A DNA stretch of 64,000 nt. Origin: Marmoricola sp. URHB0036 (GTDB taxonomy: Bacteria > Actinomycetota > Actinomycetes > Propionibacteriales > Nocardioidaceae). This document shows positions 11,340 to 21,472 of this stretch, piece after piece. Location of the stretch: NCBI RefSeq assembly GCF_000426045.1, contig NZ_AUEP01000013.1, forward strand, positions 124,001 through 188,000. Direction: 5' to 3'. Position 1 is the first letter of the stretch. The number at the start of each line of letters is the position of its first letter. The translations under genes were made by a program, and so were the position numbers. The notes under the pieces are model-generated. The model did no database searches, was not told the DNA's origin, and was given only the letters and a program-made list of their open reading frames with translations.

Positions 11340-12225
11340 AGAGCAAGCGAGCGGGCTGGCGCCAGGGCAGTGGCTCGCCCAGCAGCACCTCGAGCCGGTC
11401 GTCGTACGGCGCGTAGTGCTCCTCGAGCCGCGCCCTCGCCCGGGGAGTCATCTCGGCCGGGGGCGACGGGTTCCACCGGCCGAAGCCGGCCGCGGGCACG
11501 TGCGGCGGCAGCCCGAGGAACTCCAGCACGCGGGCGTACTCCGGCTCGGGCGTCTCGGAGAACCGTTCGGAGAACAGCACGTGCACGTTCTCGCGACCCA
11601 GCTCGGCGAAGAACAGCTCGAGCCGGTCGACGTACTGCCCGCGACGGACGAACGAGCTGTGCCGGTCGGCCCAGCTGAGGTACGACGGATCGGCCGCCAT
11701 CCGCTCGCGTTCGCCGACGTTGCGCAACGGCTCGAGCTCGATCGCCTCGTCGAAGCTGACCGAGTCGAACCCGCGAGCCACGTTGTGCCGGTGGGCGGAG
11801 TGGGCACGCTCGACGGGGTCGCGGAGCATCACGATCGCCTTCACCCCCGGCAGGTCGCGAGCGATCCGGTGCACCGCCTCCGGGTGGTCGAGGTAGTAGC
11901 CGCTGGCCTCCATCGCCAGTGGCGGCCGTTCGGACTGTCCGGAGCGCCACTGGGCGACGGCCCGGACCGGGAAGTGGCCGCGGTACCAGCGCGGTCCCTG
12001 GGGGTAGTGCACGTCGAAGTAGTTGACGCTCTTGTGCAGCACCGGAGGAGCGACGAGCGGGTGCTCGATGAGCGCCCGGTGCAGGGCGGTGGTCCCGCAC
12101 CGGTTCCCGCCGCACATCAGGAAGTCGGGAATCATCCGCAGTCCGGCCGTGTAGCGGCCGAACGTCCGGGACACCTGTCGCCCGCGGCGCTTGACCCACA
12201 TGGGGGCGTCGGCCCGGGTGATCAT
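11335..12225 (-). CDS. sulfotransferase family protein
   Basis: 296 aa. The PAPS 5'-phosphosulfate loop is seen as CGGNRCGTTALHRAL and the 3'-phosphate-binding segment as VMLRDPVERAHSAHRH, the two diagnostic motifs of PAPS-dependent sulfotransferases. It most resembles bacterial enzymes that sulfate glycans or lipids; the substrate is unknown. The ATG at 12225 overlaps the antiporter stop (ATGA), which fixes the start although the frame stays open far upstream. It is last in a phosphatase-antiporter-sulfotransferase operon. Confidence 0.85.
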   Translation of the reverse strand: MITRADAPMWVKRRGRQVSRTFGRYTAGLRMIPDFLMCGGNRCGTTALHRALIEHPLVAPPVLHKSVNYFDVHYPQGPRWYRGHFPVRAVAQWRSGQSERPPLAMEASGYYLDHPEAVHRIARDLPGVKAIVMLRDPVERAHSAHRHNVARGFDSVSFDEAIELEPLRNVGERERMAADPSYLSWADRHSSFVRRGQYVDRLELFFAELGRENVHVLFSERFSETPEPEYARVLEFLGLPPHVPAAGFGRWNPSPPAEMTPRARARLEEHYAPYDDRLEVLLGEPLPWRQPARLLS

Positions 12226-13583
12226 GCGGCCGACCTGCCGGCAGACGTCGCGAGATCGGGCTGGTCGTGCTCGGCAATGGTCAGGTCCAGGTCGTCGATC
12301 GACACGCGCTCGAGGTAGATGCCGGCCGCGACCGAGGTGAGGATCGCCAGCAGGACGAGCCAGATGTAGAACTCCTCGTTGACGATGCCGGCGCCGAGCG
12401 CGACGGTCGCGAGGACGATGCCCGGACCGCCGCGCGCGTTGAGGGCGACCGAGAGATGTCGCGTGGGCCGGTCGGGGAGACCGGCCAGCCGGCCGCCGAC
12501 GTAGGTCGACGCCGCCTTGACCAGGCACGCGCCGGTGAGGAACACCAGGAACCAGCCGACCTCGAACCCGTGGGCCAGGTTCAGGTTCACCCCGACGAGG
12601 GCGAAGTAGCAGGGGATGAAGAAGGCGAACGCGAACCTGCGGATCGAGTCCTGGGCCGCGCTGCGCCGCTCCTCGACCTCGTCCGGGCCAGCGGAACCGC
12701 GGCGGGGCGTGCCGACGAAGATGCCGGCGACGAACGCCCCGAGGAACGCCTCGAGGTCCAGGACCAGGAAGCCGACCACGAAGGCCAGCAGCACGATCAG
12801 CCGACGCGACGTGGTGCTCAGCGGGCCCTTCACGCCCGGATGCGCGCCGATCCACTGGTTGACCCGTGGTGCGAAGGCGAACAGCAGCACGAGCAGGCCG
12901 AGGGTCGTCAGCGTGTGGTAGAGGATGTCGGCCGTCGACCCGGCCTGGAGACCCAGCGCACCGGGAAGCCCGGTCGCGGGTCCGGAGGGTGTGGCCAGGT
13001 CGACGGCGACGGCCAGTACGACGTACAGGATCACGTCCTCGACGACCGCGACACCGAGCACGACGCGGGCGAAGCCGGTCCGCAGGAGACCGAGGTCGTG
13101 CATGATCCGCGAGATCACCGGGATCGACGTGACCGCGACGGCGATCGCGAAGACCAGCACGAAGGAGGTCTGGTTGGCGTTCTCGCCCCACAGCGAGTCC
13201 ATGGGGACGAGGGCCACCGCGAGCAGCCCGAAGGCGAAGGGGACCACGAGACCCACCGAGCTGACAGCCCCGATGACCCGTCGCTCGGTGCCCCGCATCC
13301 GGCGGCGGGCATCGACGCCGGCGATGAACATCAGCAGGAACAGGCCCAGCTGTTGGACGAACCCGATGACTGCGCGGGTGGTGAGGTCGTCGGTGAACAT
13401 CCAGGCCACCGCGCCTGGCCAGACCTGGCCGAGCACCGTCGGGCCGAGGACGAGGCCACCGAGGATCTCGCCGATGACCCGGGGCTGGCGGAACCGCTGG
13501 AACAGGGCGCCGCCGGCGTGCGCGACGAGGAGCAGGGCCAGCAGCGCGATCGCGACCCGCGTCAGGTCGGCCGAGGTGATCAC
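12222..13583 (-). CDS. CPA2-family cation:proton antiporter
   Basis: 453 aa with about 12 hydrophobic helices. KefB/NapA-like features include FQRFRQPRVIGEILGGLVLGP, LFMFIAGVDARR-type helices and GMALNARG-like SVALNARGGPG. It exchanges Na+ or K+ for H+ at the cytoplasmic membrane. No C-terminal TrkA-N/RCK domain is present. The GTG start lies 7 bp after the phosphatase stop; the 3' end overlaps the sulfotransferase start. Confidence 0.88.
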   Translation of the reverse strand: MITSADLTRVAIALLALLLVAHAGGALFQRFRQPRVIGEILGGLVLGPTVLGQVWPGAVAWMFTDDLTTRAVIGFVQQLGLFLLMFIAGVDARRRMRGTERRVIGAVSSVGLVVPFAFGLLAVALVPMDSLWGENANQTSFVLVFAIAVAVTSIPVISRIMHDLGLLRTGFARVVLGVAVVEDVILYVVLAVAVDLATPSGPATGLPGALGLQAGSTADILYHTLTTLGLLVLLFAFAPRVNQWIGAHPGVKGPLSTTSRRLIVLLAFVVGFLVLDLEAFLGAFVAGIFVGTPRRGSAGPDEVEERRSAAQDSIRRFAFAFFIPCYFALVGVNLNLAHGFEVGWFLVFLTGACLVKAASTYVGGRLAGLPDRPTRHLSVALNARGGPGIVLATVALGAGIVNEEFYIWLVLLAILTSVAAGIYLERVSIDDLDLTIAEHDQPDLATSAGRSAA

Positions 13584-16646: not shown

Positions 16647-18608
16647 ATGTCGTCGCCAGAGCAGACCACCCCCAACCTGCCCGGTGGAAGCTGGCACCCG
16701 GTCAGCGCAGTCGACGTTCCCGGCGAGGGGCGGGTGCGCAGCGTCACCGTCGACGGTCGGAGCCTCGCACTGACGCGGTGTGGGCCCACGCTCGGAGCCC
16801 TGCAGAACCACTGCCCTCACCAGGGCGGTCCGCTGGGGGAGGGGTCGATCGAGAAGGGGTTGTTGCGCTGTCCGTGGCACGGCTACGACTACGACCCGCT
16901 GACGGGTGAGTCGCCCGGCACGTTCGGCGATGCCGTCGGGGTCTACGAGGTCGAGGAGCGCGACGACGGTGTCTACGTACGACTTCCGGAGCCCGTCGAG
17001 GCGGGGCGCACGGTGGCCGACGTGCTCGTCGAGACACTCGTCGCACACGGTGTGACGCGGGTCTTCGGGATGGTCGGGCATTCCAACCTGGGTTTTGCCG
17101 AAGCCCTGAGACGGGCCGAGGAGCGCGGCGAGCTGACGTTCATCGGCATCAGGCACGAGGGCGCGGCGGCCTTCGCGGCGAGCGCCTACGGCAAGCTGAC
17201 GGGCCGGCCGGCCGCGTGCTTCGCGATCGCCGGACCCGGCTCGACCAACCTGCTGACGGGGCTGTACGACGCGAAGCTGGACCAGTCCCCGGTCATCGCG
17301 ATCTCTGGTCAGGTGCCCTCCAAGGTCCTCGGTCGCGGCGCCTTCCAGGACCTCGACCTGTCCGCGGTCTTCAAGGACGTGGCACTCACCACGACGACTG
17401 TCCAGTCGGGCAGCGACCACGCCGAGCTGGCCGCCCTTGCCGTGAAGCACGCGCGCGACGGGCGCGGCGTGGCGCACCTGGTGCTGCCCGACGAGGTGCA
17501 GGCGCTGCCGTCGGACGCTCCGGCGGTCTCTCCCGACGGGCGCTACTCCGACCGGCTGGTCCGGCCCGACGAGCAGGCGCTGGCTCGCGCCGCCCAGCTG
17601 GTCGTGAGCGCGAGGCGTCCGGTCCTCATCGTCGGGCACGGCGCCCGCGGTGCGGAGGACGAGGTCACCGCCCTGGCCGAGCGACTGCACGCACCGGTGC
17701 TGACCACCTTCAAGGCCAAGGGTCTGGTCCCCGACACCCACCCGCTCGGCGCGGGCGTCCTCGGCCGGAGTGGTACGCCGGTCGCGAGCTGGTTGATGAA
17801 CGAGTCCGACCTGCTCGTGGTGGTGGGTGCCTCCTTCGCGAACCACACCGGCATCGCGCCGTACAAGCCGATCGTGCAGATCGACGACAACCCCTCCTCG
17901 ATCGGCCGCTTCGACGCCGTGACCGCCAACGTGCTGGGCGATGCCGCGATCGTCGTGGCGGCGCTGACGGAAGCGGTCGTGGACGCCGATCCCGAGGACC
18001 AGCGCCCCGACGTGGCCGAGCGCTGGGAGATCTGGCGTGCCGAGAAGGCACGCCGAGCTGCCGACGACCGCGGCGCCGGGGTCTCGGCCGCGGCCGTCTT
18101 CGCGGCGCTGTCCGAGCACCTCCCGAAGGAGGCTGTCGTGACCGTGGACGTGGGCAACCACGCCTACTCGCTGGGGCGCTACCTCGAGTCCAAGGGCCAA
18201 CCGGTCCTGATGTCCGGCTACCTCGGCTCCATCGGGTTCGGCTACCCGGCCGCGATCGGCGCCTGGGCGGCGGACCCTGATCGACCCGTGGTCGCCGTCA
18301 CCGGCGACGGCGGGTTCGGGCAGTACGCCATGGAGCTGAACACGGCCGTGAAGTACGGCATCCCCGTCAAGCACGTGCTGCTGAACAACAACGCGCTCGG
18401 CAAGATCAGCAAGGAGCAGCTCGCAGCCGACTACCCGGTCTGGCACACCTCGCTGAGCAACCCCGACTGGGCCGCGTACGCCGAGCTCTGCGGCGCGACC
18501 GGCATCAAGGTCACCTCCAGTGACCAGCTCGACGAGGCGATGAAGACCCTGTTCGAGACCCCAGGGCCGGCGCTGCTCTGCGTCGAGCAGGACCCGGAAC
18601 TGATCTGA
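16647..18608 (+). CDS. Rieske [2Fe-2S] domain fused to a ThDP-dependent enzyme (pyruvate oxidase/acetolactate synthase-like)
   Basis: 653 aa from the ATG at 16647 (GAGGAG 7 nt upstream). Residues 15-115 form a Rieske ferredoxin domain: cluster ligands C56-P-H58 and C75-P-W-H78. Residues 122-653 are a full ThDP enzyme: PYR domain with the catalytic Glu in RHEGAAAF (E171), a central domain, and the ThDP/Mg motif GDGGFGQYAMELN ending in NNNALG (about 552-580). The ThDP part resembles pyruvate oxidase, sulfoacetaldehyde acetyltransferase and acetolactate synthase. It should cleave a 2-keto acid; the iron-sulfur head could pass electrons from the enamine intermediate to or from a partner. A flavodoxin-like gene follows 40 bp downstream. 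The actual substrate is unknown. Confidence 0.88.
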   Translation: MSSPEQTTPNLPGGSWHPVSAVDVPGEGRVRSVTVDGRSLALTRCGPTLGALQNHCPHQGGPLGEGSIEKGLLRCPWHGYDYDPLTGESPGTFGDAVGVYEVEERDDGVYVRLPEPVEAGRTVADVLVETLVAHGVTRVFGMVGHSNLGFAEALRRAEERGELTFIGIRHEGAAAFAASAYGKLTGRPAACFAIAGPGSTNLLTGLYDAKLDQSPVIAISGQVPSKVLGRGAFQDLDLSAVFKDVALTTTTVQSGSDHAELAALAVKHARDGRGVAHLVLPDEVQALPSDAPAVSPDGRYSDRLVRPDEQALARAAQLVVSARRPVLIVGHGARGAEDEVTALAERLHAPVLTTFKAKGLVPDTHPLGAGVLGRSGTPVASWLMNESDLLVVVGASFANHTGIAPYKPIVQIDDNPSSIGRFDAVTANVLGDAAIVVAALTEAVVDADPEDQRPDVAERWEIWRAEKARRAADDRGAGVSAAAVFAALSEHLPKEAVVTVDVGNHAYSLGRYLESKGQPVLMSGYLGSIGFGYPAAIGAWAADPDRPVVAVTGDGGFGQYAMELNTAVKYGIPVKHVLLNNNALGKISKEQLAADYPVWHTSLSNPDWAAYAELCGATGIKVTSSDQLDEAMKTLFETPGPALLCVEQDPELI

Positions 18609-18648: not shown

Positions 18649-19371
18649 GTGACCGAAGCACCCAGCGCGACCAGCTACGCCGATCTCAAGGCGCTGTTCA
18701 TCAACTGCACGCTGAAGCGATCGCCCGAGCCCAGCAACACCCAGGGACTGGTCGACATCAGCCGCCACATCATGGAGGCCCATGGCGTGCAGGTCGACGT
18801 CGTCCGCGCCATCGACCACGACATCGCCACCGGCGTCTGGCCCGACATGACCGAGCACGGCTGGGAGACCGACGACTGGCCGGCGATCTTCGAGAAGGTC
18901 AAGGCCGCCGACATCCTGGTGCTGGCCGGGCCGATCTGGCTGGGCGACAACAGCTCGATCATGAAGCAGGTCCACGAGCGGTTGTACGGCGGATCGCACC
19001 TCCTCAACGACCAGGGGCAGTACCTCTACTACGGCCGGGTCGGCGGCTGCCTGATCACCGGTAACGAGGACGGCATCAAGCACTGCGCGCACAACGTGCT
19101 CTACACGCTGCAGCACATCGGCTACACCATCCCGCCCCAGGCCGACGCGGGCTGGATCGGCGAGGCAGGTCCCGGCCCGTCGTACCTCGACCCCGGCTCG
19201 GGCGGTCCCGAGAACGACTTCACCAACCGCAACACCACCTTCATGACCTGGAACCTGATGCACCTGGCCAAGCTGCTCAAGGACGCCGGCGGTGTCCCGG
19301 CGTACGGCAACCAGCGCAGCGAGTGGGATGCGGGTTGTCGATTCGACTTCGAGAACCCGGAGTACCGATGA
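18649..19371 (+). CDS. flavodoxin-fold NAD(P)H-dependent FMN reductase-like protein
   Basis: 240 aa. The flavodoxin-like fold is shown by LKALFINCTLKRSPEPSNT (phosphate-binding loop), ILVLAGPIWLGDNSSIMK and GGCLITGNEDG. The family binds FMN and reduces quinones, azo dyes or iron, or carries electrons. The upstream GAGGAG is about 12 nt before the start, giving a clear ribosome site. It sits directly behind the Rieske-ThDP fusion and is probably its electron-transfer partner (inference). The ECF sigma gene starts 20 bp after its stop. Confidence 0.85.
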   Translation: MTEAPSATSYADLKALFINCTLKRSPEPSNTQGLVDISRHIMEAHGVQVDVVRAIDHDIATGVWPDMTEHGWETDDWPAIFEKVKAADILVLAGPIWLGDNSSIMKQVHERLYGGSHLLNDQGQYLYYGRVGGCLITGNEDGIKHCAHNVLYTLQHIGYTIPPQADAGWIGEAGPGPSYLDPGSGGPENDFTNRNTTFMTWNLMHLAKLLKDAGGVPAYGNQRSEWDAGCRFDFENPEYR

Positions 19372-19378
19372 CAGGCGC

Positions 19379-19384
19379 TACGCT
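19379..19384 (+). promoter_or_regulatory. -10-like hexamer for the ECF sigma gene
   Basis: TACGCT ends 6 nt before the GTG at 19391, the spacing expected if transcription starts at the start codon. No clear -35 is seen. No Shine-Dalgarno is present, which agrees with a leaderless message. Confidence 0.35.
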
Positions 19385-19390
19385 CCCGGC

Positions 19391-20026
19391 GTGGTCACGT
19401 CGAGCACCGACGACGCGATCGTGGCGGGTGTTCGCTCCGGTGACGAAGCCATCTTCGCGCAACTGCTGAACGACTGGTCACGATCGATGTTGCTGCTCGC
19501 CCGCACCTTCGTCTCGACGGAGGCCTCCGCCGAGGAGGTCGTCCAGGACACCTGGCTGGCCGTCATCCGGGGCATCGACGGCTTCGAGGGTCGGTCCTCG
19601 CTGCGCACCTGGGTCTACCGGATCCTGGTCAACACCGCCAAGAAGCGCGGGCTGCGCGAGAGCCGGACGGTGCCGTGGAGCAGCCTTGCCGGCGTCGAGA
19701 GCGACCACGGCCCCACCGTCGATCCGGTGCTGTTCCGTGATGCCGACGACCAGTACGCAGGACACTGGCGGTCCTTCCCTCGGGAGTGGCGATCCGCAGA
19801 GGGCAGCGTGCTCGACAGCGAGGTGCGGACCACGGTGCGTGAGGCGATCGACTCGTTGCCCGACCGGCAGCGGGTCGTGATCACCCTGCGTGACGTGATC
19901 GGGCACAGCTCCGAGGAGGTCTGCCAGATGCTCGAGCTGTCCGGCGCCAACCAGCGGGTGCTGCTGCATCGCGCCCGGGCCGCCGTACGCACCCGGCTGG
20001 CGTCCTACCTGGAGGTGGCCCGATGA
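19391..20026 (+). CDS. ECF-type RNA polymerase sigma factor
   Basis: 211 aa. Sigma region 2 is seen in EEVVQDTWLAVIRGIDGFEG and LRTWVYRILVNTAKK; region 4 in SLPDRQRVVITLRDVIGHSSEEVCQMLELSGANQRVLLHRAR. A rather long region 2-4 linker (about 70 aa) is present. The start is set at GTG 19391 (VTSSTDDAIVAGV), where the sigma fold begins; upstream codons belong to the flavodoxin gene region. The stop overlaps the anti-sigma start (ATGA). Confidence 0.85.
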   Translation: MVTSSTDDAIVAGVRSGDEAIFAQLLNDWSRSMLLLARTFVSTEASAEEVVQDTWLAVIRGIDGFEGRSSLRTWVYRILVNTAKKRGLRESRTVPWSSLAGVESDHGPTVDPVLFRDADDQYAGHWRSFPREWRSAEGSVLDSEVRTTVREAIDSLPDRQRVVITLRDVIGHSSEEVCQMLELSGANQRVLLHRARAAVRTRLASYLEVAR

Positions 20027-20259
20027 GCGACCTCACCTGCCAGGAGTTCGTCGAGCTGGTCACCGACTACTTCGAGGGCGAGCTCGATGCCGAGACCACC
20101 GCCCGCTTCGACGAGCACCGGGCGCTGTGCCCCGGTTGCGAGACCTACCTGCTCCAGATGAAGGAGACGGTCTCCCGGCTCGGGGAGATCCCGGTCGAGT
20201 CCCTCTCCGAGGAGATGCAGTCGACGTTGCTCTCGGCCTTCCGCGACGTGCGCCGCTGA
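20023..20259 (+). CDS. zinc-binding anti-sigma factor (zf-HC2/ZAS)
   Basis: 78 aa, soluble. The ZAS signature H-x3-C-x2-C is present as EHRALCPGC, preceded by CQEFVELVTDYFEGEL. There is no membrane segment, so it acts in the cytosol, likely holding the preceding sigma factor and releasing it on thiol oxidation or metal loss (known for RsrA-like proteins; whether it is redox-sensing here is inference). It is coupled to the sigma gene by ATGA and one base before the antiporter ATG. Confidence 0.88.
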   Translation: MSDLTCQEFVELVTDYFEGELDAETTARFDEHRALCPGCETYLLQMKETVSRLGEIPVESLSEEMQSTLLSAFRDVRR

Positions 20260-20260
20260 C

Positions 20261-21472
20261 ATGCCTGACGTCGAGTTCACCAACCTCCTGCTGGTCGCCG
20301 TCATCGCCCTACTGGCGCCGCTGACCCTGGGGCTGGCCCCGCGACTGAGGGTCCCGGCCGTCGTGCTCGAGATCGTCGCCGGCATCGTCGTGGGTCCCCA
20401 GGTCCTCGGCTGGGTCGAGGTCGACCTGCCGGTCTCGATCGTGTCGCTCCTCGGCCTCGCGTTCCTGCTGTTCCTGGCCGGGCTGGAGATCGACCTGCAG
20501 CAGCTCAGGGGGCAGGTGCTGCGGCTCGCCCTCGTCGGGTACGCCGTGACGCTGGTGCTCGGAGTCGTGACGGGGCTCGGGCTGGACGCCGTGGGCTGGG
20601 TGCACAGCCCGGGCCTGGTGGCGGTCACCCTCTCCGCCACGTCGCTGGGTCTCGTGGTGCCGGTGCTCAAGGACGCAGGCCAGGTCGACTCACGGCTCGG
20701 CCAGACGGTCGTGGCGGCTGCCTCGGTCGCTGACTTCGCCGCCATCGTGCTGCTCTCGTTGTTCTTCTCGGCATCGGACGGCTCGACCGGCAGTCGGCTG
20801 GTGCTGCTGGTGTCGTTCGCGGCACTCGTGGGGGCCACGGCGGTCGCCACCATGTTCGTCGCCCGCTCGCGACGGCTGACGATGACGTTGACCCGGCTGC
20901 AGGACACCACTGCGCAGATCCGGGTGCGCGCAGCCGTCGTACTCCTCGTGGCCTTCGTCGCCCTGGCCGAGCAGTTCGGGCTGGAGAGCATCCTCGGCGC
21001 CTTCATGGCCGGGGCGGTGGTAGGTCTCGTCGACCGTGACTCCGTGTCACACCCCAACTTCCGGCTCAAGCTCGAGGCCATCGGCTACGGCTTCCTCATC
21101 CCGGTGTTCTTCGTGAGCAGCGGGCTGCGGCTCGACCTGAGCGGTCTGATGGAGAACCCGGCGGCCCTCGCGCGGGTGCCGGTGTTCGTGCTCGCCCTGC
21201 TCGTCGTACGCGGGCTGCCGGCGCTGCTGTTCTCCCGGCTCTTCGACCGCCGCTCGGTCGTCGCCGCCGGTCTGCTGCAGGCGACCTCGTTGCCGTTCAT
21301 CGTCACGGCCACGCAGATCGGTGTGCTCACGGGCTTGCTGAGCGGCGTGACCGCGGCCGCCATGGTGTGCGCCGGGTTGTTGTCGGTGGTGCTGTTCCCG
21401 GTGGCAGCGCTGGCGTTGCTGCGCTCGCACCTGAGTACTTCGACGGATGTCGGGTCGATGTCGCCGTCGTGA
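20261..21472 (+). CDS. CPA2-family cation:proton antiporter
   Basis: 403 aa, about 11-12 membrane helices. Motifs LRVPAVVLEIVAGIVVGPQVLGWV, LFLAGLEIDLQQLRGQ and FGLESILGAFMAGAVVGL are typical of Na+(K+)/H+ exchangers. The start is one base after the anti-sigma stop, so it is in the same transcript and is probably a target of that sigma factor. No regulatory RCK domain. Confidence 0.88.
   Translation: MPDVEFTNLLLVAVIALLAPLTLGLAPRLRVPAVVLEIVAGIVVGPQVLGWVEVDLPVSIVSLLGLAFLLFLAGLEIDLQQLRGQVLRLALVGYAVTLVLGVVTGLGLDAVGWVHSPGLVAVTLSATSLGLVVPVLKDAGQVDSRLGQTVVAAASVADFAAIVLLSLFFSASDGSTGSRLVLLVSFAALVGATAVATMFVARSRRLTMTLTRLQDTTAQIRVRAAVVLLVAFVALAEQFGLESILGAFMAGAVVGLVDRDSVSHPNFRLKLEAIGYGFLIPVFFVSSGLRLDLSGLMENPAALARVPVFVLALLVVRGLPALLFSRLFDRRSVVAAGLLQATSLPFIVTATQIGVLTGLLSGVTAAAMVCAGLLSVVLFPVAALALLRSHLSTSTDVGSMSPS

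Follow-up and report, generated by a model that had tools for sequence, protein, structure and literature searches.

The 64,000-nucleotide stretch of Marmoricola sp. URHB0036 analysed here (contig NZ_AUEP01000013.1, positions 124,001 to 188,000; hereafter the window) carries a gene for an enzyme in which a Rieske iron-sulfur domain is fused to a complete thiamine diphosphate (ThDP) enzyme. This gene, which we call RThDP (16647..18608, + strand), encodes 653 amino acids with no interruption of frame, and a Shine-Dalgarno-like GAGGAG sits 7 nt 5′ of its ATG. The Rieske [2Fe-2S] domain occupies residues 16-88 (16692..16910, +; PF00355, 48.5 bits against a Pfam gathering cut-off of 20.3), with its ligands spaced as C56-x-H58 and C75-x2-H78. 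The ThDP enzyme spans residues 122-644, where TPP_enzyme_N, M and C follow one another in order at 120-124 bits each. Its PYR domain (residues 122-239; 17010..17363, +; PF02776, 123.8 bits) includes the catalytic Glu171, H145 and the F233-Q234 pair, and is followed by a central domain of the nucleotide-binding type (residues 313-440; 17583..17966, +; PF00205, 120.1 bits). The PP domain (residues 501-644; 18147..18578, +; PF02775, 122.6 bits) holds the GDG motif at residues 553-555 with the Mg ligand D554, N581, which we take to be the second Mg ligand, and the pairs K586-I587 and E590-Q591. Pfam finds Rieske, Rieske_2 and the three TPP_enzyme domains on this chain and nothing else, with no PFOR domain and no oxygenase catalytic domain. 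An AlphaFold2 model built on a 53-member alignment has a mean pLDDT of 90.1 and a pTM of 0.88. The first-pass annotation had proposed a Rieske head on a full ThDP enzyme and had named the C-x-H/C-x2-H ligands, Glu171 and a GDG...NN motif; these residues lie where it had placed them, and the unbroken frame, the Pfam domains and a whole family of such fusions establish that the fusion is real and forms a single chain.

A tblastn scan of the species genomes of GTDB confirmed at least 549 relatives of RThDP, and the best 80, which are those most similar to the window, were kept. They are 55-81% identical to RThDP in the best segment, and 79 match the Rieske and ThDP parts almost whole (L022 matches residues 14-518 only). 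Record titles among these 80 include Actinomycetota (with Acidimicrobiia), Acidobacteriota, Planctomycetota, Cyanobacteria, Chloroflexi, Bacteroidota (Cyclobacteriaceae, Phaeodactylibacter), Myxococcota, one alphaproteobacterium, the gammaproteobacterial Thiodiazotropha and Parabeggiatoa, and others. Full-length members come from at least six bacterial phyla and from haloarchaea. Five plasmid records match 98-99% of the query, one from Mycobacteroides (69% identity) and four from haloarchaea (53-55%); among the 20 plasmid matches listed, identity falls to 32-36% from the next one on, and most of these lower matches are confined to the ThDP part. Databases name members of the family 'pyruvate oxidase', 'thiamine pyrophosphate-binding protein' or 'acetolactate synthase large subunit-like'. 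RThDP is a conserved, widespread and phylum-spanning family.

An assembly artefact, or a pair of genes that are separate in other organisms, was looked for and rejected, as the Rieske head is present across the relatives. A protein search with the ThDP part alone gave at least 7943 matches at E <= 1e-100 among 8000 candidates scored. Five of the 120 matches listed have no PF00355 mark, and these look cut short: four carry the label partial and the fifth has no name, all five come from contigs of 2.3-5.0 kb, and two start partway through the Rieske domain. RThDP also occurs in 11 of 396 Actinomycetota genomes (E <= 1e-150), where every one of the 12 matches begins at or before residue 16 and therefore includes the Rieske head.

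Conservation was assessed in 84 full-length members, namely that of the window and those of 83 loci (L021 and L022 were excluded for broken or cut frames). Invariant in all 84 are the four Rieske ligands C56, H58, C75 and H78, together with H145, E171, F233, Q234, G373, S396, F397, D413, D554, K586, I587, E590, Q591 and W599, while residue 581 is N in 80 members and D in four. The linker (residues 89-121) has 32-35 residues throughout, and no member of this set has residues past Q653. Because these residues are invariant and the linker varies so little in length in 84/84, strong selection acts on both halves as parts of a single chain.

The nearest solved relative of the Rieske head is the soluble ferredoxin CarAc (E 5.6e-9); next come SxtT, which is a Rieske oxygenase, T4moC and naphthalene dioxygenase ferredoxin. 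CarAc, T4moC and naphthalene dioxygenase ferredoxin share with RThDP the C-x-H/C-x2-H ligands in a domain of about 100 residues, and, like the Rieske ferredoxins of oxygenases, RThDP has no bc1-type disulfide cysteines beside its ligands. Those ferredoxins are separate carriers, whereas the Rieske domain of RThDP is fused to a ThDP enzyme.

In sequence, the ThDP part resembles the pyruvate oxidases most closely. These give its best sequence score (256 bits for PoxB versus 232 for acetohydroxyacid synthase, AHAS) and also rank first in VIA-align; PoxB, Corynebacterium glutamicum PQO and PRK08611 have in common with it the PYR-central-PP order, the catalytic Glu, the F-Q pair and the Mg-binding Asp. 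RThDP G373, F397 and D413 align with PoxB G252, F276 and D292, which presumably serve flavin adenine dinucleotide (FAD), but the flavin pocket is conserved only in part. RThDP differs from PoxB in its N-terminal Rieske head and in having no C-terminal membrane tail, as the 572-residue PoxB chain aligns only up to its residue 525. In all 84 members, Lys586 replaces the active-site F465 of PoxB, and H145 replaces the Asp of its TGDS. AHAS (acetolactate synthase) has the same fold, with 29-30% identity across the ThDP part; it has no Rieske domain, and the plant enzyme has Met in place of K586. The chain falls far below the NCBIfam equivalog cut-offs of PRK08611 (395.6 versus 742), PRK09124 (317 versus 792) and spxB (281.9 versus 637.85), below that of TIGR00118 for AHAS (316.6 bits versus 538.35), and below the cut-off of every one of the 25 models listed out of 56. 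PFOR and OFOR offer an analogy only: they too combine ThDP chemistry and iron-sulfur electron transfer in one protein, but RThDP has none of the PFOR Pfam domains and carries a Rieske [2Fe-2S] motif rather than [4Fe-4S] clusters. The invariant Lys586 and His145 mark a distinctive active site, and we would guess that the enzyme acts on something other than plain pyruvate, perhaps on a compound that bears an additional negative charge.

No description of this fusion was found in the open-licence literature of PubMed Central, with subscription papers and preprints outside the scope of the search, and none appears in the portions available of PMC5020499, PMC6037941, PMC7176365, PMC6514802, PMC10653896, PMC10326533 and PMC5220378. 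The novelty of RThDP is provisional because closed-access papers lay outside the search. On that provisional basis, we regard it as a variant of the POX-type ThDP enzymes for which no description was found.

Directly 3′ of RThDP, after a gap of 40 bp, lies FLAV (18649..19371, +), a flavodoxin-like protein of the FMN-reductase family and a candidate electron partner (PF03358, 37.3 bits, cut-off 24), whose solved relative is 5mji, a 'BRAMP domain protein' (E 2.2e-44). The first-pass annotation had correctly placed a flavodoxin-like gene immediately after RThDP, and had supposed that it completes a small redox module. This second proposal stands in part: a flavoprotein partner is statistically linked to RThDP, but FLAV itself lies beside RThDP in only 14 of 86 loci (80 scanned, five plasmid and the window; tblastn at E <= 1e-4 in the available flanks), within 200 bp in nine of the 14. 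FLAV was rejected as a universal partner on this count, and also for being common where RThDP is absent. One genome (G183) has two copies of each gene; on its contig 4 the two stand in the opposite order to those of the window, with FLAV 76 bp upstream of RThDP and both on one strand.

The commoner neighbour, found at 36 of the 86 loci, is a second Rieske fusion, which we call RGltS. It joins a Rieske domain to a glutamate-synthase domain of the [3Fe-4S]/flavin mononucleotide (FMN) type (Pfam Rieske and Glu_synthase; for example L060:5211-6845), and at 27 of these 36 loci it immediately precedes RThDP, with both genes on one strand. In the 61 loci with 2.5 kb on both sides, RGltS is present at 27 and FLAV at nine. 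The Rieske ligands and a C-x5-C-x4-C motif are invariant in 28/28 full-length RGltS copies. Searches return at least 8000 matches at E <= 1e-30 (8000/8000 candidates scored), with names such as glutamate synthase-related, Rieske-domain protein and methylamine-glutamate N-methyltransferase subunit C. Matches to RGltS in three genomes (G390, G074 and G498) carry one in-frame stop each (TGA, TGA and TAG), which may reflect a pseudogene, a sequencing error or recoding. A search of the genome of the window finds no RGltS at E <= 1e-60, and the usual partner was therefore out of sight of the first-pass annotation.

RGltS and FLAV occur together at none of the 86 loci (hypergeometric 2e-4, with kinship ignored here and in all values below). 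In a quick tree of 84 rows, of which 48 carry a partner label, at least four changes between RGltS and FLAV are needed on the starred branches. The partner differs among cyanobacteria (FLAV in L040 and L076, RGltS in L060 and L071) and even among species of Pseudonocardia (FLAV in L010, RGltS in L016 and L018). Across the 396 Actinomycetota genomes, with thresholds of E <= 1e-120 for RGltS and E <= 1e-60 for FLAV, the three proteins occur in 11 (RThDP), six (RGltS) and 65 (FLAV) genomes. RThDP shares four genomes with RGltS (p 5e-6) and seven with FLAV (p 5e-4), and one or other flavoprotein is present in 10 of the 11 RThDP genomes versus 69 of 396 overall (p 1e-7), G189 being the sole RThDP genome with neither. 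With the genome of the window left out, the figure is nine of ten (p 7e-7). Seven of the eight close relatives that bear RThDP have FLAV, adjacent in four and distant in three, and none was found in the eighth (G001, 75% complete). Among the 36 loci with no adjacent partner, RGltS lies elsewhere in 18 (two partial), FLAV elsewhere in eight, and either in 24. A flavoprotein partner is linked to RThDP by genome context.

The other genes in the vicinity were surveyed at the same loci. In the window, the order runs from C9, divergent from RThDP, through RThDP and FLAV to an extracytoplasmic function (ECF) sigma factor, its anti-sigma factor and a cation/proton antiporter. The ECF sigma factor (19292..20026, +; Sigma70_r2 and r4_2) probably has its true start downstream of 19371. 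Its gene overlaps by 4 bp that of the 78-residue anti-sigma factor (20023..20259, +; zf-HC2 PF13490, 37 bits), which has the zinc motif H32-x3-C36-x2-C39. The antiporter is of CPA2 type (20261..21472, +; PF00999, 201.7 bits), and its nearest NCBIfam model, TIGR00932, scores 153.1 bits, under the cut-off of 238.3. A second antiporter-like gene, judged from its open reading frame translation only, lies at 12222-13583, about 7 kb from the CPA2 gene. C9 (15902..16552, -) belongs to no Pfam family and is confidently modelled (pLDDT 95.1); Foldseek finds no solved relative at E <= 0.001, and W132, H135, D137, G148 and D153 are invariant in a 22-member alignment. In the 94 bp between C9 and RThDP, an ECF-like promoter (CGAAC, 16-bp spacer, GTAA) can be picked out by eye; it is weak, and we do not rely on it.

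Relatives of these genes recur in the flanks of RThDP: C9 at 24 of the 86 loci, the ECF sigma factor at 13, the CPA2 antiporter at 12, the anti-sigma factor at 11 and a CPA1-like antiporter at five (21, 11, 11, 9 and 5 of the 61 loci with full flanks). The CPA1-like antiporters lie 3′ of RThDP on the same strand at five loci other than the window, two of them being distant matches. Relatives of the sigma/anti-sigma pair occur near RThDP copies of either partner type, and this zinc-motif pair may point to stress control of some actinomycete copies. At the haloarchaeal plasmid loci (L002-L005, L125), RThDP lies near genes for DsrE, dihydrolipoyl dehydrogenase, NAD(P)H-hydrate epimerase, DUF3179, peroxiredoxin and mercury or arsenic functions, though not every gene is found in each. 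These plasmid surroundings hint at stress and name no substrate. Neighbours were also tried more widely as a clue to the substrate, and were rejected as such: ABC transporters, P450, GCV_T, PPK2 and SDR proteins occur at part of the loci and name none.

To our knowledge, known ThDP oxidoreductases send their electrons to [4Fe-4S] ferredoxins, quinones, O2 or lipoamide. Membrane quinones serve PoxB, CidC and PQO, and O2 serves the lactobacillus POX. Our best explanation, to which we would give even chances, is that RThDP comes from the pyruvate-oxidase branch of the ThDP enzymes and works as a soluble oxidoreductase of 2-oxo acids that tolerates O2, its electrons passing from a flavin to the Rieske cluster and on to a flavoprotein rather than to quinone or O2. 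The direction of electron flow, the substrate, the cofactors and the contact with a partner are what we infer, as follows. With the catalytic residues intact, ThDP would attack a 2-oxo acid, and CO2 would be lost. A flavin of the central domain would then be reduced by the resulting carbanion/enamine, and the N-terminal Rieske cluster could take the electrons from it singly, in place of membrane quinone or O2. The cluster would then hand them to a flavoprotein, which would be FLAV in Marmoricola and its kin and RGltS in many other lineages. On this most economical reading, the family would have exchanged docking to membrane quinones for a Rieske head, with FLAV and RGltS as alternative acceptors. 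This putative electron route is plausible.

Several observations count against this proposal. Foldseek ranks an AHAS first, and not a pyruvate oxidase. With regard to FAD, ADP-binding relatives lie within about 2-3 Z units in VIA-align, and pyruvate need not be the substrate, because F465 of PoxB is Lys586 in RThDP. The co-occurrence and exclusion statistics ignore phylogeny, the loci are the 80 most like the window, and only the best three to seven candidates per genome were scored. FLAV also has other functions: RThDP is absent from 58 of the 65 FLAV genomes, and among 98 close relatives FLAV occurs in 29 and RThDP in eight. Two of the six RGltS genomes also have no RThDP. Finally, at 12 of the 36 loci with no adjacent partner, the sequence covered by the search contains neither FLAV nor RGltS; eleven of these loci are from metagenome-assembled genomes and the other is from a plasmid record. 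A single six-member clade of Acidimicrobiia accounts for five of the 12, and for this reason the absence of a partner there looks real.

The best-surviving alternative, which we consider unlikely, is that the ThDP core works without oxidation, as a decarboxylase or carboligase similar to acetolactate synthase and with a structural flavin, and that the Rieske head senses redox state or stabilises the fold. The closeness of AHAS to PoxB in score and its first place in Foldseek favour this, and regulation that responds to redox state is hinted at by the zinc-motif ECF sigma pair, which occurs near 11-13 of the 86 loci. Yet no Rieske ligand is lost in any of the 84 members, the flavoprotein partner co-occurs with RThDP far above expectation, the score for the AHAS model is well short of its cut-off, and no AHAS regulatory subunit appears among the ten representatives of recurrent neighbours that were scanned.

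It is also conceivable, though improbable in our estimation, that 2-oxoacid oxidation by RThDP feeds a reductive amination by RGltS, yielding glutamate or another amino acid, and that FLAV is a substitute feeding some other acceptor. The position of RGltS directly upstream on the same strand at 27/36 loci is in keeping with such a couple. So are Q290, K293 and R313 of its FMN domain, which are invariant in 28/28 copies and correspond in the alignment to a segment of glutamate synthase that we take to bind 2-oxoglutarate. Set against this, Pfam finds no glutaminase domain in RGltS, FLAV occupies its place at 14 loci, and RGltS occurs without RThDP in two of its six genomes. An inward flow, in which FLAV or RGltS acts as a reductase and electrons run through the Rieske cluster to the ThDP intermediate or flavin for a reductive or O2-activating step, would suit the many host lineages that appear aerobic from their record titles and the nearest solved Rieske relatives, as CarAc, T4moC and naphthalene dioxygenase ferredoxin are electron inputs to oxygenases, but we think it equally improbable. 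Against it, Pfam finds no oxygenase catalytic domain in RThDP, and reductive carboxylation needs lower potentials than those of Rieske clusters.

Returning to outward flow from RThDP to a flavoprotein, a broader and more tentative proposal, which we think possible but would not favour, is that two Rieske-headed enzymes, RThDP and RGltS, swap electrons through their Rieske domains in bacteria and haloarchaea, as an electron-transfer system that spans phyla and of which our searches gave no description. The oxidation of a 2-oxo acid might thereby be coupled to a reductive step with no involvement of quinone, O2, NAD or a low-potential ferredoxin, and FLAV might replace RGltS in some lineages, including Marmoricola. 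We find the pairing with a second Rieske fusion more interesting than the FLAV neighbour. Together with the swappable flavoprotein, it yields a testable prediction of which protein donates electrons to which. If true, the Rieske route would be an oxygen-tolerant alternative electron path, by which keto acids would give up their electrons in an unfamiliar manner.
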